From Desulfarculus baarsii DSM 2075 (GTDB lineage Bacteria; Desulfobacterota; Desulfarculia; Desulfarculales; Desulfarculaceae), in contig NC_014365.1 in assembly GCF_000143965.1 (NCBI RefSeq), positions 461,501-525,500 on the forward strand: a DNA stretch of 64,000 nt. The letters are read 5' to 3'. The position numbers and the translations under genes are program-made. Of the stretch, positions 31,528 through 42,705 are shown one piece after another (the first letter of the stretch is position 1; each line of letters opens with the position of its first letter). Below the pieces are notes generated by a model that was given only the letters and a program-made list of their open reading frames with translations, did not search any database and was not told where the DNA came from.

Positions 31528-32442
31528 TCAAGAGGCCATTGCCGAATAAACAGGCGGGATATTTTCATCCAACATGGCGCGCAGTCGCCGGCCCAGATTT
31601 TCCACGGCGCGCGGGTCGATGGCCGGTGGCGCGCCGGCGGCTTGCAACGCCGCGATGGCCAGTTCGGCCGGCAGGTTGCCCGGCGCGCGACCCGGCAGAA
31701 AAGGGCAGCCGCCCAGGCCGCCCAGGGTCACGTCGAAGCGGCCGACCCCGGCCCGCCAGCCGGCCAGCAGATTGGCGCGCAAGGCCTCGGGCCGGCCGTG
31801 CAGATGCAGGCCCAGGGCCTCCAGCGGCAAATTTCGGCCCAACTCGGCGATCATCCGCCGCAACTGGTTTGGCCGGGCCAGGCCGGCGGTGTCGGCCAAA
31901 AAAAACTCTTGCGCGCCAAGATCGGCCAGCCAGGCAAAGGTCCGCGCGATCAGCTCGCGGGGCGGCGCGGCCAGGCCCGGCCCGCCAAAGGCGCATTGCA
32001 GGCCCACCCGCGCCCGCAGGCCGGCCTGGCGGGCCAGGGCGGTCAGTTCGCCCAGGCGGGCCAGACCCCCGGCCACATCCAGGCCCAGGTTGGCCCGGCT
32101 GTGGGGCTCGGACAACGAGGCCGAAAGGGCCACCTTGCCCAGACCGCAGGCCAGGGCCCGCTCCAGGCCCTGGCGGTTGAAGACCAGCGCCGAAAGCGTC
32201 AACCCCGGCCGCGCGCCGGCGGCCAGGCGGGCCAGGCGTTCGGCGCCGATCATCTGGGGCATCTTGTCGGGCCGGGCCATCGAACCGATCTGCACGCTCT
32301 GGAACCCGGCGTCGGCCAGGCCGCGCAGCAGCTCCAGCCGCCGGGCCAGGGGCAGGGCCCGGGGCAGGATCTGCAAGCCGTCGCGCAGGGTTTGGTCCTC
32401 CAGCACGAGCGGCCGCCGGACGTTACATGCAGCCCAGGCCAT
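31528..32442 (-). CDS. HMG-CoA-lyase-family protein at the end of the nif operon
   Basis: A 304-aa DRE-TIM metallolyase. The metal/substrate motif is LEDQTLRDGLQ (residues about 14-24), a cysteine loop GGLGGCPFLPGRAPGN matches the HMG-CoA lyase signature, and the metal His pair is in LGLHLHGR, although HMG-CoA lyases have HxHDT here. Length also fits HMG-CoA lyase and not homocitrate synthase NifV, which is longer. Its ATG lies 20 bp inside nifB, so it is translationally coupled to it. A role in supplying or modifying the organic acid ligand of FeMo-co is an inference; it could equally be a passenger acyl-CoA enzyme. Confidence 0.85.
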   Translation of the reverse strand: MAWAACNVRRPLVLEDQTLRDGLQILPRALPLARRLELLRGLADAGFQSVQIGSMARPDKMPQMIGAERLARLAAGARPGLTLSALVFNRQGLERALACGLGKVALSASLSEPHSRANLGLDVAGGLARLGELTALARQAGLRARVGLQCAFGGPGLAAPPRELIARTFAWLADLGAQEFFLADTAGLARPNQLRRMIAELGRNLPLEALGLHLHGRPEALRANLLAGWRAGVGRFDVTLGGLGGCPFLPGRAPGNLPAELAIAALQAAGAPPAIDPRAVENLGRRLRAMLDENIPPVYSAMAS

Positions 32443-33709
32443 CGCCGCCGCCCCGGCCCTTGCCGCCGCCGGCGCAGCCGCCGCCGCTACGCCGCAGGCG
32501 CAGGGCGCTGAGATCCTCGCCGGCGTAGAGCCGCTTCAGGCCCTCCAGGATAAACCCCTGCATCTCGACGGCCGCCAGGCCGCTTTCGGCCAGCACCGTC
32601 CGCGGGGTCTGGCCCACGCCGCTGCACAACACCGCCCGGCAATCGGCCAACAACTCGGCCACCTGCCGCCAGCGGGCTTCGCCGCCGCCAGCCGGCGGGG
32701 CCTGGCGCGTGTCCAACAACTCGAAGCCATCGGCCGTGGGGCCCCAGATCTGGAAGCGCTCGGCCTGGCCCAGGTGCAGATTGACCAACACGCCCTCGCG
32801 GCTGGCCACGGCCACGAAGGGCCGGGCCGCGTCGGCCGGCGGGGCCAGCTTGGCGCACTGGCTCAGGCAGCCGGCCAGGCGCGGCGACTGATCCTGGCCC
32901 AGCAGGCCCACCGCGTCGGCCCGACAGCGCGTGCAGTGGCGCATCTGGGGCAGATGAATCTCGCAAACGGCGCGCAGGCGCTCCATCAGCGGCCGGGGCG
33001 GCTCGGGGATATGGCCAAAGGCCGTGCCCTGGTTGGGAAACAGCGGCATCAGGTTCATCAGATGGGCCCCCCGCGCCGCGGCCCAGCGCGCGACCCGCTC
33101 CACGTGGCCATCGTTGACGCCGGGGATGACGATGGTGTTGATCTTGACCTTGACGCCGGAGTCCTTGAGCAGGGCCAGGCCTTCCTCCTGGCGGGCCAGC
33201 AGCAGCTCGGCCCCGGCCAGGCCGCGATAAACCACCTTGCCGTCGCGGACCCAGGCGTAGATGTTCTGGCCGATGGCCGGATCGACGGCGTTGACCGTCA
33301 GCGTCAGGTGGCTCAGGCCGGCCTTGATCAGCGTGGCCGCGTGGGCGGGCAGGGCCAGGCCGTTGGTGGCCAGGCACAATAGCAGCTCGGGCCGGGCGCG
33401 CTTGATGCGCAGGATGGTCTCCAGGGTGGCCTCGGCGTTGGCCAGGGGGTCGCCGGGGCCGGCGATGCCGGCCACGCTCAGGCGGGGCTCGGCCTGGAGG
33501 GCCCGCTCCATGTAGGCCTGGGCCTGGTGGGGCTGGAGCACGGCGCTGCTGACGCCGGGTCGGCTTTCGTTGACGCAGTCATAGCGGCGGTCGCAATAGT
33601 TGCACTTGATGTTGCACAACGGGGCCACCGGCAGGTGCGCCCGGCCAAAGGCGCCCTTGGCCGCCTCGTCAAAGCAAGGATGACGGTTGGGCTCAAGCGG
33701 TTCGTTCAT
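32423..33709 (-). CDS. nifB: Nitrogenase cofactor biosynthesis protein NifB (radical SAM + NifX-like domain)
   Basis: A 428-aa protein. The radical SAM cysteines are Cys32, Cys36 and Cys39 in CNIKCNYC, right after HLPVAP; SAM-binding AGPGDPLA follows. A further cysteine pair, HCTRC, near residue 260 fits the ligands of the K1/K2 precursor clusters. Residues about 300-400 form a NifX/NafY-like domain (FVAVASREGVLVNLHLGQAERF), and the tail is Gly/Cys-rich. NifB fuses two [4Fe-4S] units with a carbide into NifB-co, the precursor of FeMo-co passed to NifEN. ATG 33709, 13 bp after nifN. Its paralog at 36826-37986 lacks all three radical SAM cysteines. Confidence 0.96.
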   Translation of the reverse strand: MNEPLEPNRHPCFDEAAKGAFGRAHLPVAPLCNIKCNYCDRRYDCVNESRPGVSSAVLQPHQAQAYMERALQAEPRLSVAGIAGPGDPLANAEATLETILRIKRARPELLLCLATNGLALPAHAATLIKAGLSHLTLTVNAVDPAIGQNIYAWVRDGKVVYRGLAGAELLLARQEEGLALLKDSGVKVKINTIVIPGVNDGHVERVARWAAARGAHLMNLMPLFPNQGTAFGHIPEPPRPLMERLRAVCEIHLPQMRHCTRCRADAVGLLGQDQSPRLAGCLSQCAKLAPPADAARPFVAVASREGVLVNLHLGQAERFQIWGPTADGFELLDTRQAPPAGGGEARWRQVAELLADCRAVLCSGVGQTPRTVLAESGLAAVEMQGFILEGLKRLYAGEDLSALRLRRSGGGCAGGGKGRGGGDGLGCM

Positions 33710-33722
33710 GGTGCGTCCTCCC

Positions 33723-35096
33723 TTATAGATAGCCGTAGCCCCAGTGGTGGCGGTCCTGGTCGTGGGCCAGGATGGCGTTGATGATGCGATCCAACAGCTC
33801 CTGCGAGCCCTGGTAGTCCAGGCAGAGCAGGCGCTGGCCGCCAAAGCGGTCGTGGATGGGAAAGCCCACCCGCACCAGGGGAACGCCCAGCTCGCGGGCC
33901 AGGCGATAGCCCTTGGAGTTGCCCACCAGGATATCCGGGCCGATCTGGCGGGCCATCTCGCCGATCTGCTGGAAATCCACGCCATCGACGGCCCGCGCGG
34001 GCTGGCGGACCAGCCCCTCGGTGACCTCGGCGATGGCCGCCGGAAAACGACCGCTCTTGCCGCCGGTGGCGCACAAGGCCGGCCGCACGCCCAGTTCGGC
34101 CAGCCAGCCGGCAACGCCCACCACCATGTCCTCGTCGCCGTAGATCACCGCCGTCTTGCCCGAAAGATACTTGTGGCCGTCGATCATGGCGTCGATGAGC
34201 CGGCCGCGCTCCAACTCGATTTCCTCGGGCGTGTCGCGGCCGGAAAGCTCGCGCAGGGCCTGGTGCAGCGCGTCGCAGGCCCGCACGCCCATGGGCAGGC
34301 CCAGCGAGCGCAGCGGCACGTTGAGGTACATCTCCAGCCACGATCCGGCGCTGCGGCCGGGCAGGCAATGGCCCAACTCGATGGTGGCCTTGGCCCCGCC
34401 CATGGCCCGCAGTTGATTGAGCGAGACGCCGCCGGCGGGCAGCGCCTCGTAGGTGGCCATGGCCGGGGCGTCGAGGGTGCGCGAATAGTCCGGGGCCAGG
34501 GCCGCGCGCAGGCCATAGGCGCGGGTCACCGTCGCCAGGCGGCGCAGGTCGGCCGGGCTGACAAAGCCGGGCAGCAGGTTCACGCCGCCATGGGCCGGCG
34601 TGGGCTGGGCCAACTGACTGACCATGGCCAGCACCGCCGCGTGAAAGCCGTCCACGTGGCTGCCGCCGTAGGCCGGCGTGGGCACGGTGATCAGGGCCGG
34701 CATCTGGCCGTCGGGGGTCTCGACCTTGGCCTCGGCCAGAAACTCGCGCACCAGGCCGGGCACGTCGTCGCCGATGGTCTCGGTCAGGCAGGTGGTGGCG
34801 ATGCCCACCACCTTGGCCCCATACTTGTTGATGACGTTGACCAGGCCCTTCTTGAGGTTGGGCCCGCCGCCGAAGATGGCCTGGTTTTCGCCCAGGCTGG
34901 AGCTGGCGATGTCCACCGGCTCGCGGAAATGGCTGATCAGATAGCGCCGCATGTAGGTGGCGCAGCCCTGGCTGCCGTGCAGAAAGGGCGCCGCGCCCTC
35001 CACGCCCTTGAAGGCCAGGCAGGCGCCCAGGGGCATGCACAGCTTGCAGGCGTTGGTGGTCGAGACGTAATCGGGCGATGTGATTTCTCTGGTCAT
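33723..35096 (-). CDS. nifN: Nitrogenase cofactor scaffold subunit NifN
   Basis: A 457-aa homolog of NifK that pairs with NifE to form the scaffold on which NifB-co matures to FeMo-co. NifK/N motifs are visible: NACKLCMPLGACLAF, LHGSQGCATYMRR and TTCLTETIGDDVP. It lacks a fused NifB domain. The start ATG 35096 overlaps the nifE stop by four bases (ATGA); a longer open frame is only an overlap with nifE. The short N-terminus is normal for NifN. NifN follows NifE in the same transcript. Confidence 0.95.
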   Translation of the reverse strand: MTREITSPDYVSTTNACKLCMPLGACLAFKGVEGAAPFLHGSQGCATYMRRYLISHFREPVDIASSSLGENQAIFGGGPNLKKGLVNVINKYGAKVVGIATTCLTETIGDDVPGLVREFLAEAKVETPDGQMPALITVPTPAYGGSHVDGFHAAVLAMVSQLAQPTPAHGGVNLLPGFVSPADLRRLATVTRAYGLRAALAPDYSRTLDAPAMATYEALPAGGVSLNQLRAMGGAKATIELGHCLPGRSAGSWLEMYLNVPLRSLGLPMGVRACDALHQALRELSGRDTPEEIELERGRLIDAMIDGHKYLSGKTAVIYGDEDMVVGVAGWLAELGVRPALCATGGKSGRFPAAIAEVTEGLVRQPARAVDGVDFQQIGEMARQIGPDILVGNSKGYRLARELGVPLVRVGFPIHDRFGGQRLLCLDYQGSQELLDRIINAILAHDQDRHHWGYGYL

Positions 35097-36460
35097 GCCG
35101 CCGCCTCCTTGGCCAGGGCCATGCGCCGGGGCGTGAAGCGCCAGACCGGGCTCATCACCGTGGCGTGGATCTCGCGGGCGAAGTTGAGCATGCCCTCGAA
35201 GCCCTCCAGGGCCAACTTGCGCTCGTGGTTGTGGTCGCAAAAGCCGATGCCCAGCTTGTAAGCGATGGGCCGCTCCTTGACGCCGCCGACAAAGACGTCG
35301 ACGTCCTTTTCGAGCAGATAGTTCATCAGTTCCAGCGGGTTGGCGTCATCGACGATGATCGTGCCGGGGTCGCTGACCCTGGCCAGCTCCTCGTAGTCTT
35401 CCTCGGTGCCGGTCTGGCTGCCGGCCAAGACCACCCGCATGCCCAGCAAGCGGAAGGCCTTGATCAGGCTGAAGGCCTTGAAGGCCCCGCCCACGTACAT
35501 GGCCGCCCGCTTGCCCTGCAAGTCCTGGCGCAGCTCCATGAGCTGGGGATAAAGCGCGCCCAGCTCCCGCGAGACCAACTCCTGGGCCCGGGCGGCCATC
35601 AGCGGGTCGCCGAAAAAGTCGGCCACGTCGTAGAGGGCCTGGGCCATGTCGTCGACGCCCAGGTAGCTGACGCGCAGAAACGGCGTGCCATAGTCGCGCT
35701 GCATCATGCGGGCCAGCTCCATCGTCGCCCCGGAGCACTGCACCAGGTTCAGCGCCGCGCCGTGGGCGCGCATCAGGTCGGCCACCCGGCCGTCGCCGGT
35801 GACGCCGGCCACCACCTCCACGCCCATCTGCTCCAGATAGCGCTTGATGATCCAGGTCTCGCCGGCCAGGTTGAAGTCGCCCAGCAGGTTGACGCTGTGG
35901 GGGCTTATGCCCTCGGTGGGGCCCTGGCCGATCAGCCGGGCCATGGCCCGACAGGCCGCGGCGTAGCCGGCCCGCTTGTTGCCCTTGAAGCCCTCGCTCA
36001 TCACCGGGATCACCGGAATGCCCGCCTCGGCCTCGATCTTGCGGCAGACGGCGGCCATGTCGTCGCCGATGATGCCCACGATGCAGGTGCTGTAGACAAA
36101 GGCGGCCTTGGGCCGGTGGCGGGCGATCAGCTCGCGCAGGGCCCGCTCCAGCTTCTTTTCGCCGCCAAAGACCACGTCGCGCTCTTGCAGGTCGGTGCTG
36201 AACGAATGGCGGTGCAGCATGGGCCCCGAGCTGAGCGCGCCGCGGATGTCCCAGGTGTAGGCGGCGCAGCCCACCGGCCCGTGGATCAGGTGCAGGGCGT
36301 CGGCGATGGGGTAGAGCACCACCCGCGAGCCGCAGAACACGCAGGCCCGCTGGCTGACCGCCCCGGCCAGGCTCTGCTTGTCGCAACTGATGCGAAAAGG
36401 CCTGTCCTCGCCCTTTTCAAATATCTGGTCGCTGCGCTCTTCAAAGACGACCTTTGCCAT
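35093..36460 (-). CDS. nifE: Nitrogenase cofactor scaffold subunit NifE
   Basis: A 455-aa homolog of NifD. Characteristic segments are RACVFCGSRVVLYP, HGPVGCAAYTWDIRG, VYSTCIVGIIGDD, and LVQCSGATMELA, where the cysteine matches the cofactor-ligand position of NifD. NifE with NifN receives NifB-co, molybdenum and homocitrate. The start ATG 36460 has GGGAGAA seven bases upstream and comes 12 bp after the end of the interrupted ferredoxin gene. Nothing in the sequence suggests inactivation. Confidence 0.96.
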   Translation of the reverse strand: MAKVVFEERSDQIFEKGEDRPFRISCDKQSLAGAVSQRACVFCGSRVVLYPIADALHLIHGPVGCAAYTWDIRGALSSGPMLHRHSFSTDLQERDVVFGGEKKLERALRELIARHRPKAAFVYSTCIVGIIGDDMAAVCRKIEAEAGIPVIPVMSEGFKGNKRAGYAAACRAMARLIGQGPTEGISPHSVNLLGDFNLAGETWIIKRYLEQMGVEVVAGVTGDGRVADLMRAHGAALNLVQCSGATMELARMMQRDYGTPFLRVSYLGVDDMAQALYDVADFFGDPLMAARAQELVSRELGALYPQLMELRQDLQGKRAAMYVGGAFKAFSLIKAFRLLGMRVVLAGSQTGTEEDYEELARVSDPGTIIVDDANPLELMNYLLEKDVDVFVGGVKERPIAYKLGIGFCDHNHERKLALEGFEGMLNFAREIHATVMSPVWRFTPRRMALAKEAAA

Positions 36461-36472
36461 GTGGCGTTCTCC

Positions 36473-36775
36473 CTAGGTGATCAAGTAATCGGCCGGAGGC
36501 TGGCCGTCTTCGATGCCATCGAGGATCGCGTCGATGGCCTCCTCGCTGTCGACGCCCTTGAACCACCAGTTTTACGGCTGCACCACCATGGCCGGGCCGT
36601 TTTCGCACTGCTTGAGACAACCCGTGGCGGTGACCAGGCAGTCCAGGCCCCGGTCGATGATTTCTTCTTCCAGGTATTGCAAAAAGCCGTTGGTCTTTTT
36701 GTGGCAGATGCCCTTGGGGTCGCCACCCAGGCGAAAGCTCTGGCAGACCAGGATCTGCGTGGCGGGAATACCCAT
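36473..36775 (-). pseudogene. Nif-linked thioredoxin-like [2Fe-2S] ferredoxin with in-frame TAA stop
   Basis: The frame encodes a 100-aa Shethna-type ferredoxin: cysteines at LVCQSF, GICHKK, ATGCLKQC give the usual four-Cys pattern, with MVVQP after them. At 36572-36574 an in-frame TAA ends translation after 67 residues; the same frame continues with NWWFKGVDSEEAIDAILDG and a proper TAG at 36473. The family normally has Pro-Glu or Pro-Asp followed by aromatic residues here, so a single GAA-to-TAA change (PENWWF) explains the break. All four cluster cysteines lie before the stop, so a truncated holoprotein remains possible. It could also be a sequencing error. The ribosome site AAGGAG precedes ATG 36775. 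Such ferredoxins are thought to donate electrons to nitrogenase. Confidence 0.85.
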
Positions 36776-36825: not shown

Positions 36826-37986
36826 TCATTTGCCGCGCCCCTTTTTCCGGCCGCCGTGCAGGGCCTCGACCATGCCTTCGATGTTGCCTTCCTGGCACAG
36901 CACGCTCAGCCCCGCCTCGACCAGCGCCCGCTTGGGCGCCTCGCCGGCCGCCGCGGCCAGCACGGCGAAACAGTCGCCAAGGATCTGGGCCGTTTGCCGC
37001 CAGCGGGCCTCGCCGCCGCCCGGCGCGGGGGCTGGCCTGGCCTCCAGCAACGCCACCGGCCCGTTCTTGGGCCCATAGATCAGGTATTGCTCGGCCTGGC
37101 CCAGATGCAGGTCCACGTCGAAGCCGTTGGAGCTGCACACCGCCAGATAAGGCCGCGACTCGCTGGGCCGGGGCAGGGCGTGGCCCGCCGCCTCGGGCTG
37201 GCCGAAGTCGTAGGTCAGGGCCTTGTCGCACGCTCGCGGGTCGATGAACATCGTTGGCAGGTGGGCCGCCGCCGCCTGGGTCAGGGCCTCCAGCCGCGCC
37301 GGGTCGAGTTGGCCCAGCGGCCTGGGGCTGCCGTCGTCGACGGCGGAAAAGGGGAAAAGCCTAAGCTCCGTCGCGCCCAGCCGGGCGGCCGTGGCGGCGA
37401 TGAGCTCCACGTGCTCCACGTTGACGCCGGGGTAGACCGTGGTCTTGACGATGACCGGCAGACCCCTGGCCTTGAGGGCGGTGATGGCCGCCGCCTGTTG
37501 GTCGATGAGCTGGTCGGCCGCCTGGGCCAGGGGGATGGTCCTCACGCCGGGCCTGATCCAGGCGTAGACCTTGGCCGCCACCAGCGGGTCCACCGCGTCG
37601 ACGAGCATGGCCAGGTGGGCCAGGTCCAGCGCGGCCAGCCTGTCGGCCAGGGCCGTCAGGCCAAGGCCCAGGGTGGTCAGGCAGAGGCTCACGCCGGGCA
37701 GCTTGGCCCGCAGCATGGCCAGAACCTCCAGGGTCAATTCCGGCGTGGCCATGGGGTCGCCAGGCCCGCCGACGTTGACGGCCTTGATGGTCTGGCCCTG
37801 TTCGATCAGGTAATCCAGCCAGTTCAACGCCTGTTCCGGGGTCAGGGCCCGGGGCAGGGGCTTTTCCGCGCTGAACCTGATGCGCGCCATCGCCCGGGGC
37901 GCCACCGGCAGGTGGACCCGACCGCTGGAACGGCGCGCGGCCGCGCAGAAGTCACTCGCTGGTTCGTGTGTCTTGCTCATGGCCAT
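36826..37986 (-). CDS. NifB-like paralog lacking the radical SAM cysteines, fused to NifX-like domain
   Basis: A 386-aa protein that aligns with NifB of this operon almost from the first residue: HLPVAP is at residues 25-30 in both. At the radical SAM positions 32, 36 and 39, where NifB has Cys, this protein has Ala, Ile and Ser (PRAMARIRFSAEK). The HCTRC pair for the precursor clusters is also gone. The TIM-barrel core is otherwise well kept (NVGGPGDPMATPELTLEVL, VDAVDPLVAAKVYAWIR, TTVYPGVNVEHVELIAA), as is the NifX/NafY-like C-domain (YLAVCSSNGFDVDLHLGQAEQY). So it cannot do NifB chemistry; a cofactor-carrier or chaperone role is inferred. It lies between nifK and the ferredoxin gene. ATG 37980 is an alternative start. 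Confidence 0.9.
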   Translation of the reverse strand: MAMSKTHEPASDFCAAARRSSGRVHLPVAPRAMARIRFSAEKPLPRALTPEQALNWLDYLIEQGQTIKAVNVGGPGDPMATPELTLEVLAMLRAKLPGVSLCLTTLGLGLTALADRLAALDLAHLAMLVDAVDPLVAAKVYAWIRPGVRTIPLAQAADQLIDQQAAAITALKARGLPVIVKTTVYPGVNVEHVELIAATAARLGATELRLFPFSAVDDGSPRPLGQLDPARLEALTQAAAAHLPTMFIDPRACDKALTYDFGQPEAAGHALPRPSESRPYLAVCSSNGFDVDLHLGQAEQYLIYGPKNGPVALLEARPAPAPGGGEARWRQTAQILGDCFAVLAAAAGEAPKRALVEAGLSVLCQEGNIEGMVEALHGGRKKGRGK

Positions 37987-38014: not shown

Positions 38015-39394
38015 TTACAGCACCAACTCGAAGGCGTGTTCCTGGTCGTCGCGATCCTTGCGGTCCAGCAGGGCCGAGAGGATCTTTTCCAGCAGCCGCA
38101 GGCCGCCCTTGTAACCCACCGTGGGGAAGTACTGGTGGCCCACCCGATCGAGGATGGGGAATCCCCAGCGCACCAGGGGAATGTCCTCGTCGCGGGCGAT
38201 GTGCTTCAGGTAGGTGTTGCCCATGAGCAGATCCACGGGGTCGTTTTTGATCCACTGGTGCAGCAGGAACATGTCGGCGGTCTGGTCGCACTTGACGTTG
38301 ACCGCGTAGGGCAGGCCGGCGGTTAGCTCCCTGATCCTGGCCTCGAAGGCCTTGCCCGGCGTGCCGCTGACGATGTGGGTGGGCCACATGTCGATCGAGG
38401 TCAGAAACTCGGTCATGGCGATGAGCTGATCGGGATCGCCGGCCAGGGCCACCTTCTTGTGATAGAAGTACTGGTGCATGTCGCTGATCATGTCCACCAA
38501 CTGGCCGCGCTCGTGGGCCACCTCCTCGGGCACGCTGCGCCCGGCCACGATGCGCAGGGCGTCGACAAAGCGGTCGGTGGCCCTCAGGCCAAAGGGCATG
38601 TCCAGCACCCGGCAGGGCACCTTGAGCGTGGTGTCCAGGAAACGGGCGCCGTCGGCGCTGCACCACTCGCCCAGGGCCAGGGTGCCGATGCTGTCGCCGG
38701 CCTCGCGCAGCTGCTTGATCGTCACGCCGCCCTCGGGGAACATCTTGTATTCGCCGCTCAGCGGGCCGTTCAACACGCCCGAGGTGTCGGGAAACATGAT
38801 GATGTCGACCCCGACCATGGCGGCCAGGCGCTTGATCTCCTCCATGTCGGCGGGCTCGACCCAGCCGGGGATGATGTTGACCTTGCCGTTCTTGTGGCCG
38901 GTGGACACGGCCACGCGGGCCATGCCCTTGACCATGTTGGAAAAGCCGGTGACGTGGCTGCCCACGTAGCTGGGGGTGTTGGCGTAGATGACGTGCTTGC
39001 CCTTGGGGATCTTGCCGTCCTTGTCGGCCTTGTCGAGGATCTGGGGCAAGTCGTCGCCGATGGTCTCCGAAAGGCACGTGGTGTGCACCGCGATGACTTC
39101 GGGCTCGTAAACGGTGAAGATATTGTCGATGGCCTGCAACAGGTTGGCCTGGCCGCCGAACACGCTGGCCCCTTCGGTGAAGGAGCTGGTGCCGGCGCTG
39201 ATGGGCTCCTTGTAGTGGCGGGTCAGGGTGCTGCGGTGATAGGCGCAGCAGCCCTGGGAGCCGTGGGAGTGGGGCAGGCAGCCGTGCACGCCCAGGGCCG
39301 CGTACATGGCGCCGATGGGCTGGCAGGTCTTGGCCGGATTGATGGTCAAAGCGCCGCGCTCGACCAAGTTGTCGGGGGTGTGTCTTAGCAGCAT
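38015..39394 (-). CDS. nifK: Nitrogenase MoFe protein beta chain
   Basis: A 459-aa subunit. P-cluster ligand regions are present: KTCQPIGAMYA, HGSQGCCAYHRSTLTRH and TTCLSETIGDDLP. It lacks the N-terminal extension of about 50 residues found in proteobacterial NifK such as that of Azotobacter, as in clostridial-type enzymes, consistent with the extra segment in NifD. It pairs with NifD to form the heterotetramer that holds the P-cluster. 25 bp downstream of nifD. Confidence 0.97.
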   Translation of the reverse strand: MLLRHTPDNLVERGALTINPAKTCQPIGAMYAALGVHGCLPHSHGSQGCCAYHRSTLTRHYKEPISAGTSSFTEGASVFGGQANLLQAIDNIFTVYEPEVIAVHTTCLSETIGDDLPQILDKADKDGKIPKGKHVIYANTPSYVGSHVTGFSNMVKGMARVAVSTGHKNGKVNIIPGWVEPADMEEIKRLAAMVGVDIIMFPDTSGVLNGPLSGEYKMFPEGGVTIKQLREAGDSIGTLALGEWCSADGARFLDTTLKVPCRVLDMPFGLRATDRFVDALRIVAGRSVPEEVAHERGQLVDMISDMHQYFYHKKVALAGDPDQLIAMTEFLTSIDMWPTHIVSGTPGKAFEARIRELTAGLPYAVNVKCDQTADMFLLHQWIKNDPVDLLMGNTYLKHIARDEDIPLVRWGFPILDRVGHQYFPTVGYKGGLRLLEKILSALLDRKDRDDQEHAFELVL

Positions 39395-39419: not shown

Positions 39420-41063
39420 TTATTCCCAAACGTATGTGGCCGAAAGTTCGGGGTTTTCCTGCCAGGGGGCCTTTAAATAACCCCAGACCCTGCTGTTGAC
39501 CAGGCGGTCGATCTCGCGATAGAAGTTGATCGCCCCACGGAAACCGGCGTATGGCCCGCCCGAGTCATAGCTGTGCAACTGCTTCATGGGGACGCCCAGC
39601 TTCTGGATGGAGAACTTCTCCTTGATGCCCGCGCAGAAGATGTCGGGCTTGAGCAGCTCCACCAGCTTTTCGGCCTCGTACTGGTTGAGGTCGTCGATGA
39701 CCACCGCGCCCCGCTCCATGTCGGGGATCAGGCCGTCGTAGTCCTTGAACTTGAGGCCGGAAGACTCCAGGGCGCGCAACTCCTCCTGGCTCTTGCGGGG
39801 CCTGAAGAGCCTTTCGTCGGGGCTGACCTCCAGCTCCTCGATGTTGCGGCTGTCGGCGTCGACCTTCAGCTCGGGGATGACCTGGCGGCCCTCGTAGTCG
39901 TCGCGGTGGGCGAACTCGTAGCCGGCGCTGATGGTCTTCATGCCCAGCTCCTTGAACAGCTCCTGGTAGTGGTGGGCCCGGGAGCCGCCGACAAAGAGCA
40001 TGGCCGTCTTGCCCTCGGTGCGGGGGCGCACTTCCTCGGCCACGGCCCTGACCGCGGGCATTTCCTCGGCGATGACCTCCTCGACGCGGTCGATGAGCTC
40101 CTGGTCGCCGAAGTAGCTGGCGATCTTGCGCAGGCTCTTGGCCGCGGCGTTGGCCCCGATGAAATTGACCTTCACCCAGGGGATGCCATACTTGGTTTCG
40201 AGCATGTCGGCGACGTAGTTGATGGAGCGGTGGCACATCACCGCGTTCAAGTCGGCGGTGTGCGAGCTGGCGAACTGGTCGTAGGTCGAGTTGCCGCTGA
40301 AGGTGGCGATGTTGGTGACGCCGCACTTGTTGAGGATGCGATCGATCTCGAAGCCGTCGCCGCCGATGTTGTATTCGCCCAACAGGTTGATGCGATACTT
40401 GCCCGGCTTGCCCTGGTCGTCGAGGCCCACGAGGTGCTTGAACACCTGATTGTTGGCGATGTGGTGGCCGGCCGACTGGCTGACGCCCTTGTAGCCCTCG
40501 CAACTGAAGGCGAAGACGTTGCAGTCGCCGAACTTGGCCTTCATCTTGGCCGCCACGGCGTGGATGTCATCGCCGATGAGCCCCACCGGACAGGTGGCGA
40601 AGACGCAGATGCCCTTGGGGTGAAACAGGTCGTAGGCCTCCTGGATGGCCGCTTCCAGCTTCTTTTCGCCGCCAAAGATGATGTCCTTGTCCTGCATGTC
40701 GGTGCTGAAGCAGTAGGTCATGTAGTTGGCGGCGTCCGGTGCGTAGGCGTCGGTCTGGTTGCGGCGGGTCAGCCAGGAATAGAAGCCGCAGCCGATGGGG
40801 CCGTGGGTGATGTTGACGATATCCCTGGTGGGCCCCATGATCACGCCCTTGCACCCGGCGTAGGTGCAGCCCCGCATGGTGATGATGCCGGGAATGGTGC
40901 GCACGTTGGCGGTGATCTCGGGGGTTTCGTTTTCCAGCGCCTCGTTGATCATGATCTGCTTGGCGCGCTTGCGGGCCACCTTGGGAGGATACTTCTTGAG
41001 CAGCTCCTCCTTGATTTCGGCGGCGGTCATGGTCGTGTCGTTGTTGAACATGGCTGGGGTCAT
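39420..41063 (-). CDS. nifD: Nitrogenase MoFe protein alpha chain
   Basis: A 547-aa subunit that binds FeMo-co. P-cluster cysteines lie in RGCTYAGCKG, GPIGCGFYSW and ATCPVGLIGDD. The FeMo-co ligands are Cys in NAVMCHRSINY and His in QLHSYDSGGPYAGF. Between about residues 385 and 440 lies the extra charged segment (around ELKVDADSRNIEELEVSPDE) typical of the clostridial/deltaproteobacterial clade. The Cys and homocitrate-region residues argue for a molybdenum enzyme and not Vnf/Anf; no vnfG/anfG gene is present. The ATG at 41063 has GGAGAG upstream; ATG four codons later is possible. Confidence 0.98.
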   Translation of the reverse strand: MTPAMFNNDTTMTAAEIKEELLKKYPPKVARKRAKQIMINEALENETPEITANVRTIPGIITMRGCTYAGCKGVIMGPTRDIVNITHGPIGCGFYSWLTRRNQTDAYAPDAANYMTYCFSTDMQDKDIIFGGEKKLEAAIQEAYDLFHPKGICVFATCPVGLIGDDIHAVAAKMKAKFGDCNVFAFSCEGYKGVSQSAGHHIANNQVFKHLVGLDDQGKPGKYRINLLGEYNIGGDGFEIDRILNKCGVTNIATFSGNSTYDQFASSHTADLNAVMCHRSINYVADMLETKYGIPWVKVNFIGANAAAKSLRKIASYFGDQELIDRVEEVIAEEMPAVRAVAEEVRPRTEGKTAMLFVGGSRAHHYQELFKELGMKTISAGYEFAHRDDYEGRQVIPELKVDADSRNIEELEVSPDERLFRPRKSQEELRALESSGLKFKDYDGLIPDMERGAVVIDDLNQYEAEKLVELLKPDIFCAGIKEKFSIQKLGVPMKQLHSYDSGGPYAGFRGAINFYREIDRLVNSRVWGYLKAPWQENPELSATYVWE

Positions 41064-41087: not shown

Positions 41088-41459
41088 CTAGAGGGCCTTG
41101 CCGCCGGTCTCCCCGGTGCGCACCCTGATCGCCTCGCCGATGGGCAGGACAAATATCTTGCCGTCGCCCGGCTTGCCGGTCTGGTTGGATTCGATGATCG
41201 TTCGCACCACGGCGTCCACCTGCTTGTCGGGCACCACCATGGTCAGCATGCGCTTGGAGTAGAGCTTGCCCTTTTCGCCCAACAGGGCGATGGCCTCCTC
41301 GTAGCCCTGGCTGGCCCCGGACAGGAGCTTGCTGTCGACCAGGCCCTTGCCGCGACCCTGGCACTCGTGGGCGAACATCGAGTCGATGCCCGCGGCGGTC
41401 AGCGCCTTTTTGGTCTTGTTCATGGTGTTCATGCGCACCACGGCGATCACCTCCTTCAT
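41088..41459 (-). CDS. nifI2: PII-family nitrogenase regulator NifI2
   Basis: A 123-aa PII protein with the MKEVIAVVRMN start, a T-loop of unusual length (residues about 35-75) and the C-terminal GDGKIFVLPIGEAIRVRTGETG ATP-binding segment. In methanogens and anaerobic bacteria NifI1 and NifI2 form a complex that inhibits nitrogenase when 2-oxoglutarate is low. The ATG overlaps the nifI1 stop by four bases. Its place between nifI1 and nifD is standard for this clade. Confidence 0.95.
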   Translation of the reverse strand: MKEVIAVVRMNTMNKTKKALTAAGIDSMFAHECQGRGKGLVDSKLLSGASQGYEEAIALLGEKGKLYSKRMLTMVVPDKQVDAVVRTIIESNQTGKPGDGKIFVLPIGEAIRVRTGETGGKAL

Positions 41460-41812
41460 GCCGAGGCCTCCCCTTCCGCCGGCGCCGTGTCGCAGACGCC
41501 GCTGCTGACGGTGTAGACGTCCTCCACCGGGCTGACGAAAATCTTGCCGTCGCCGAAGGCGCCCTTGGCGCCGGAGCGGGCCGACTTCATGATCGTCTCG
41601 ATGACGAAGTCCTTGTCCTCGGCGCGGATGACGCTCATCAGCATGGTCTTGGGGATCTCGTCGTAGGTGATCTCGCCGATCTTGATGCCCCGCTGCTTGC
41701 CGCGGCCGGCCACCGAATACTTGGTGACCGCGGGGAAGCCCGCGTCCATCAGGGCCGTCAGGACGTCGTCGGCTTTTTCCGGCCTCACGATTGCTCTGAC
41801 CATGATCATCAT
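41456..41812 (-). CDS. nifI1: PII-family nitrogenase regulator NifI1
   Basis: A 118-aa PII protein: MMIMVRAIVRPEKADDVLTALMDAGFPAVTK is the NifI1/GlnB-like start, GRGKQRGI the T-loop base, and GDGKIFVSPVEDVYTVSSG the nucleotide-binding end. Translation starts at one of two consecutive ATGs at 41812/41809. Lies 35 bp after nifH. Partner of NifI2 in post-translational switch-off of the NifDK protein. Confidence 0.95.
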   Translation of the reverse strand: MMIMVRAIVRPEKADDVLTALMDAGFPAVTKYSVAGRGKQRGIKIGEITYDEIPKTMLMSVIRAEDKDFVIETIMKSARSGAKGAFGDGKIFVSPVEDVYTVSSGVCDTAPAEGEASA

Positions 41813-41847
41813 GTCGCTAGTCCTTTTTCGAATGCGGTTGGTGGTTG

Positions 41848-42705
<858 letters not shown>

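Follow-up and report, generated by a model that had tools for sequence, protein, structure and literature searches.

A NifB paralog without catalytic motifs, linked to nifK in Desulfobacterota, as a candidate cofactor carrier for nitrogenase

Introduction

Why does a nitrogen fixation (nif) gene cluster that encodes a NifB with every catalytic motif also carry an intact gene for a second NifB-like protein that has lost these motifs? Such a gene is found in a 64,000-nucleotide stretch of the Desulfarculus baarsii DSM 2075 genome (NC_014365.1, positions 461,501 to 525,500), which we call the window and in which positions are given unless a locus is named. The gene, located at 36826..37986 on the minus strand, encodes a 386-residue NifB paralog that we label pNifB, for dead NifB paralog. 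Its occurrence, in the same inactive form, across at least 200 related genomes makes it probable that pNifB is a helper that hands a metal cofactor to nitrogenase and not a broken gene. We estimate a probability of about one in two that it is a carrier of the iron-molybdenum cofactor (FeMo-co) and a chaperone of apo-NifDK, comparable to NafY and NifY but built on a dead NifB. Delivery of FeMo-co into NifDK is poorly understood and known chiefly from NafY and NifY in a few proteobacteria.

Results

The reading frame of pNifB is open from its ATG to its stop codon, and its alignment with the operon's own NifB is free of gaps through residue 39, with HLPVAP at residues 25-30 of both proteins. Residues C32, C36, and C39 of NifB correspond to A32, I36, and S39 in pNifB, and the eight NifB residues that follow position 39, including C45, are deleted. 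The site of the lost CxxxCxxC motif, with this deletion after it, is at 37870..37893 (-). The ExRP motif is disrupted, TxTxN is not preserved (the sequence there is MLVDA), and the HCTRC sequence of NifB aligns to DPRAC, with CxxCRxDAxG gone and a single cysteine, C253, kept within Desulfarculaceae. The HPC motif is generally lost in the pNifB family, persisting in a few members (L001, L035), and GGPGDPMA, which includes the GPGD sequence, is retained together with the C-terminal domain. In Pfam, the Radical_SAM match (2.2e-9) begins at residue 40, past the cysteine motif, and the Nitro_FeMo-Co match (PF02579, 1.6e-9) covers residues 290-376. With the NifB equivalog model TIGR01290, pNifB scores 131.5 bits against a cut-off of 343.65, compared with 376 for the window's true NifB. 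By the NifB motifs listed in PMC5715403, pNifB therefore lacks CxxxCxxC, HPC, ExRP, TxTxN, and CxxCRxDAxG and falls below the TIGR01290 cut-off, and has the barrel fold and NifX-like C-domain of NifB. These results bear out a preliminary description of the sequence, which had noted the intact frame, the Ala, Ile, and Ser substitutions, the loss of HCTRC, and the conservation of GGPGDPMA and the C-domain. In MaNifB, cluster K1 is coordinated by H43, C30, C63, and C129, and the S-adenosylmethionine (SAM) cysteines are C50, C54, and C57 (PMC7145814, PMC6053413). Retention of K1 as a storage site was considered and rejected as the family's function because H25 and C102, which are equivalent to MaNifB H43 and C129 and are present in Desulfarculaceae and some Desulfovibrio-like members, are lost in most others.

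The enzyme domain of pNifB is dead but predicted to be folded. An AlphaFold2 model of the whole protein has a predicted local distance difference test (pLDDT) score of 83.7, and its top match in the PDB is NifB (7bi7; Z 28.0, root-mean-square deviation 2.5 Å over 249 residues), with the degenerate radical-SAM barrel (residues ~20-250; 37237..37929, -) showing 26-29% identity to NifBs in the PDB over 213-249 residues. The NifX/NafY-like C-domain (residues ~279-376; 36859..37152, -) retrieves the NafY core (1p90, E 3.9e-5) and Azotobacter vinelandii NifX (9ian, E 0.0033) in a profile search, and a model of this domain alone, of modest confidence (pLDDT 69), matches the same structures (Z 10.1 and 8.7, respectively); neither appears among the fold matches of the full-length protein, a list filled by barrels. 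Profile alignment places H294 of the VDLHLG motif (37105..37107, -) on the histidine of the HFG motif in both 1p90 and 9ian. This histidine is H121 in NafY, a protein that binds apo-NifDK and uses H121 as a FeMo-co ligand (PMC8496260), and H35 in NifX, where it is an apical ligand of NifB-co (PMC13128457). The H294-L-G sequence is invariant across all aligned paralogs, and the position two residues before the histidine separates them from NifB: residue 292 is Asp in 33 of 37 paralogs, as it is in NifX and NafY, and Asn in all 41 NifBs, giving VD-HLG in the paralogs versus VN-HLG in true NifB. pNifB thus has the NifX-like core and H-x-G histidine of NafY. The N-terminal DIMCO_N (sterile-alpha) domain of NafY (PF16844) gave no match in pNifB at E values up to 1, the N-terminus being a NifB-like barrel, and this domain was not found in the 16 genomes searched, including that of the window, with the control genomes likewise silent. 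The NifX family model TIGR02663 also gave no match in pNifB.

Could the gene simply be decaying? Loss of the catalytic motifs is what a functionless pseudogene would show. However, pairwise ratios of nonsynonymous to synonymous substitution rates (dN/dS, NG86 method) are well below 1 for the paralogs (barrel, 0.26-0.46; C-domain, 0.11-0.30), the corresponding ranges for NifBs from these genomes being 0.20-0.46 and 0.15-0.56; dS is high in the widest pairs, and the closer pairs alone are firm. The paralog barrel is constrained, in most pairs slightly less than the NifB barrel, and its residues drift faster than those of the C-domain. Five further genomes of the window's family contain orthologs with 57-60% identity, Pseudodesulfovibrio pelocollis contains one with 49% identity, and additional members are present in other classes. 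A family profile built from 17 members was searched in two other Desulfobacterota classes, where a band of high scores (at least 326 bits) lies above the NifB scores (at most 322 bits) in at least 139 of 258 and at least 63 of 297 genomes among the matches listed. These counts are lower bounds because a few divergent paralogs score within the NifB range, such as one in genome G718 at 308 bits. CxxxCxxC is present in none of the ~90 paralog copies read, and the C-domain H-L-G is present in all of them. A plasmid tblastn search matched only ordinary NifBs, no paralog was confirmed in IMG/VR viral contigs, and the sole match in a scan of genome contigs with short exact peptides was a Pseudodesulfovibrio. 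With its presence in at least 200 genomes, open frames in the copies read, dN/dS well below 1, invariant residues, and a fixed position, we reject the pseudogene explanation as having next to no chance of being correct.

The fixed position is after nifK. The paralog directly follows nifK at 17 of 17 loci in a first set, 50 of 50 in a second set that shares four genomes with the first, 9 of 9 divergent loci, and 13 of 19 in a third sample. It also stays with nifHDK in at least five genomes where nifENB lies elsewhere (G387, G368, G161, G275, and G351). The exceptions to nifK adjacency are one copy at a contig edge and five genomes of the genus g267: in four of these nifK was not found within the several kb read, with the paralog and ferredoxin gene still paired, and in the fifth nifK lies at a distance of 5 kb. 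Loci of g267 with the pair apart from nifHDK include L163-L165, L167, L169, and L170, and in G477 the distance is ~670 kb. Downstream of the paralog, a [2Fe-2S] ferredoxin gene is present at all loci read except two (L112, L162). The linkage partners of pNifB are therefore nifK and the ferredoxin gene, not nifEN. The preliminary description had placed the gene next to nifEN and asked whether its homologs always lie in nif operons: the nif cluster assignment holds, but the gene has nifK on one side and, beyond the ferredoxin gene, nifE on the other, and most sampled loci follow nifK although the g267 pair has relocated.

This persistent pairing raises the alternative that pNifB and the ferredoxin act together in maturation of the MoFe protein or its electron supply, such as P-cluster maturation or redox priming of NifDK, with cofactor binding secondary. 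The ferredoxin gene comes after the paralog at almost all loci, including those where the pair is away from nifK, and a homolog of this ferredoxin from Clostridium pasteurianum binds the MoFe protein (PMC8561814). Against this, the ferredoxin gene also follows nifK in genomes without the paralog, so that the pairing may merely reflect where the paralog inserted. In the window the thioredoxin-like [2Fe-2S] ferredoxin gene (36473..36775, -) is interrupted by an in-frame TAA at 36574-36572 (VVQP*NWWF), its frame being intact apart from this, whereas pNifB is intact; the same codon specifies E, Q, N, H, or D in 15 orthologs, and the TAA is either a nonsense mutation or a reference error. We consider a primary role with the ferredoxin unlikely.

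All paralogs fall on one side of a branch from 35 NifBs, including NifBs of the same genomes, with 100% support, and the split again receives 100/100 after removal of the radical-SAM motif columns, which answers the question, posed earlier, of whether cysteine-less homologs form a clade. Judged from these trees, the pNifB family is a NifB duplicate by descent. When mapped on a NifK tree with 34 rows, the presence of the paralog requires two changes, compared with a mean of 11.8 after shuffling; the simplest account is a single gain plus a loss in G012/G013. These two genomes (L077, L078) belong to the window's family and have closely related NifDK (81% NifK identity) with the paralog apparently lost, which makes them a potential natural control.

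Four Desulfovibrionaceae-like genomes (G667, G882, G837, and G853) have a cysteine-bearing form in the same slot between nifK and the ferredoxin gene (L148 14026-15426, L151 5183-6508, L156 6499-7860, and L157 4756-6120). These NifB-like copies keep CxxxCxxC and have lost K1 ligands, and two have lost K2 ligands as well. In G667 and G882, CxxxCxxC and CxxC are present and HPC, the Glu of ExRP, and the LCL cysteine are lost; in G837 and G853, H25 and CxxC are additionally lost with CxxxCxxC still present. By MaNifB numbering, the K1 ligands went first. As two K1 cysteines are already lost in the G667-type forms, production of NifB-co through the known route is unlikely for them. All four have Asp at residue 292, and because this D-x-H C-domain coexists with the radical-SAM cysteines, the change in the C-domain preceded loss of the radical-SAM site. 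The four group together (100/99), but their exact position beside the divergent cysteine-less forms has weak support (71/29), and the radical-SAM cysteines were hence lost either once or twice. Cysteine-bearing homologs at this locus had been named in advance as a sign of recent decay. Such homologs do exist, but they branch close to true NifB and look like ancestral intermediates rather than products of recent decay.

The remaining genes of the window's cluster are also on the minus strand, in the order nifH, two P-II genes, nifD, nifK, pNifB, [2Fe-2S] ferredoxin, nifE, nifN, and nifB. Directly upstream of pNifB is nifK (38015..39394; TIGR01286, 442.8 bits), preceded by nifD (39420..41063; TIGR01282, 679 bits), the two P-II (NifI-like) genes (41088..41992; PF00543), the upstream frame of which is over-long in the mechanical open reading frame list, and nifH (41848..42675; TIGR01287, 441 bits). 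On the other side are nifE (35093..36460; TIGR01283, 605 bits), the component-1-like nifN (33723..35240), named from its operon position as its score is under the TIGR01285 cut-off, and the true nifB (32423..33709), encoding 428 residues with every catalytic motif present in the alignment. An HMGL-like frame of the homocitrate synthase type (31528-32442, -) comes right after nifB and, at 304 residues, is short for NifV. An Rfam scan of the window gave no match.

Discussion

A carrier domain shifted toward NifX and NafY, an enzyme domain that is dead but folded, and a gene tied to nifDK together suggest that pNifB carries the cofactor and acts as a chaperone of apo-NifDK. Of the roles suggested earlier, carrier or insertase is the best reading, but of a type that would act on apo-NifDK, tied to nifDK rather than to nifEN. 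In the proposed mechanism, a NifB duplicate would have settled between nifK and the ferredoxin gene at an early point in the evolution of Desulfobacterota, lost its cluster ligands stepwise, and become a two-domain protein that no longer catalyzes a reaction but serves NifDK as a cofactor chaperone. The C-domain would bind FeMo-co, and the dead barrel could serve as a docking module that recognizes apo-NifDK, as the N-terminal sterile-alpha domain of NafY does. NifY and NafY sit on the cofactorless MoFe protein and leave upon cofactor insertion (PMC6016461); we infer that pNifB similarly delivers toward NifDK and departs once the cofactor is inserted.

The same histidine also suits another reading, with pNifB as a NifX equivalent that receives NifB-co from NifB through pairing of the two NifB-fold barrels and carries it to NifEN. 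H294 aligns with the NifB-co ligand of NifX, the barrel has the NifB fold, and no second NifX/NafY-type gene was found in the nif cluster of the window genome. However, the linkage is to nifK rather than to nifEN or nifB, even when these lie apart, and three clusters hold both the paralog and a NifX-like gene, which makes this alternative doubtful. A further explanation, in which pNifB is a regulator or heteromeric assembly partner of active NifB that tunes NifB-co output, draws on the common fold and on the presence of an active NifB in nearly every paralog-bearing genome with its nifENB locus read. Linkage to nifB is absent where nifENB is apart, though, and the barrel drifts faster than the C-domain, so we regard such a partnership as quite unlikely. 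Even more speculatively, the dead NifB could act as a bridge, pairing with active NifB, taking the cluster onto its NifX-like domain, and delivering it to a maturation site bound to NifDK, with assembly proceeding partly beside or around NifEN; we give this only a slim chance.

Several observations weigh against a FeMo-co carrier of the NafY/NifY type. G161, G314, and G611 have an additional, separate gene of the NifX-like kind in their paralog-bearing clusters, and such a gene is missing from most clusters that lack the paralog, so there is no clean pattern of NifX replacement; replacement of NifX by pNifB was considered, and a clear anti-correlation was not seen. The closest linked gene is the ferredoxin, and pNifB could hence have a redox role; in g267 the paralog is no longer beside nifK and retains only its ferredoxin neighbor. 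The absence of the paralog from G012 and G013, despite their closely related NifDK, indicates that it is dispensable in some backgrounds. As separate observations on NifX-like genes, stand-alone copies occur near nifB or nifDK in a few genomes, three of them with the paralog as well, at L061 (2357-2695), L060 (817-1143), L160 (15294-15653), and L095 (8770-9078). In G018, a member of the window's family, the gene for a single-domain NifB has a separate gene for a NifX-like protein after it (L022 1414-1836, L015), an unfused arrangement.

AnfO, a two-domain NifX-like protein (PMC11938142), suggests a different task, in which pNifB would exclude the wrong cofactor where nitrogenases coexist. Nearly all host genomes tested have a single nitrogenase system: AnfD scores above its cut-off in only one of 36 paralog- or intermediate-bearing genomes, and the other 35 each show two component-1 alpha matches, as NifD and NifE give. 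Sorting is therefore very improbable, and we reject it.

If the proposed role is correct, the FeMo-co delivery step can be filled by different scaffolds, and at least 200 Desulfobacterota genomes hold a separately evolved solution in which a cofactor-building enzyme was killed and its carrier domain kept. Database entries in which such proteins appear as NifB or as radical SAM enzymes would then need correction, and pNifB would become a candidate component for nitrogenase engineering. With the intermediates, the route by which an enzyme became a pseudo-enzyme can be tested directly.

Comparison with known systems

We found no functional study of the pNifB family in the open-access literature. 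The preliminary description knew of no dead NifB in such a role, but proteins lacking Cx3Cx2C had been met before: Arragain et al. (2017) excluded, as probable NifX, 28% of 390 NifB hits, the majority of which were without this motif, and the available part of that paper makes no mention of a barrel, clade, locus, or intermediates for the dropped hits (PMC5715403). The pNifB family may be among them. NifB and pNifB are alike in domain order and fold, but pNifB is without the radical-SAM, K1, and K2 ligand sets and is linked to nifK. NifX shares the C-domain fold and D-x-H-x-G motif with pNifB but is a single-domain protein encoded downstream of nifEN, whereas pNifB has an extra module of 270 residues. 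NafY and pNifB both have a histidine of the cofactor-binding type, which A. vinelandii NifY is without (PMC13128457). Despite its proposed like function, pNifB is not a member of the NafY/NifY family because it lacks the DIMCO_N domain; its N-terminal module is instead a dead radical-SAM barrel, of separate origin, from NifB. In the nifHDKTY gene order nifY comes after nifDK, and the gene for pNifB is located after nifDK in the same way.
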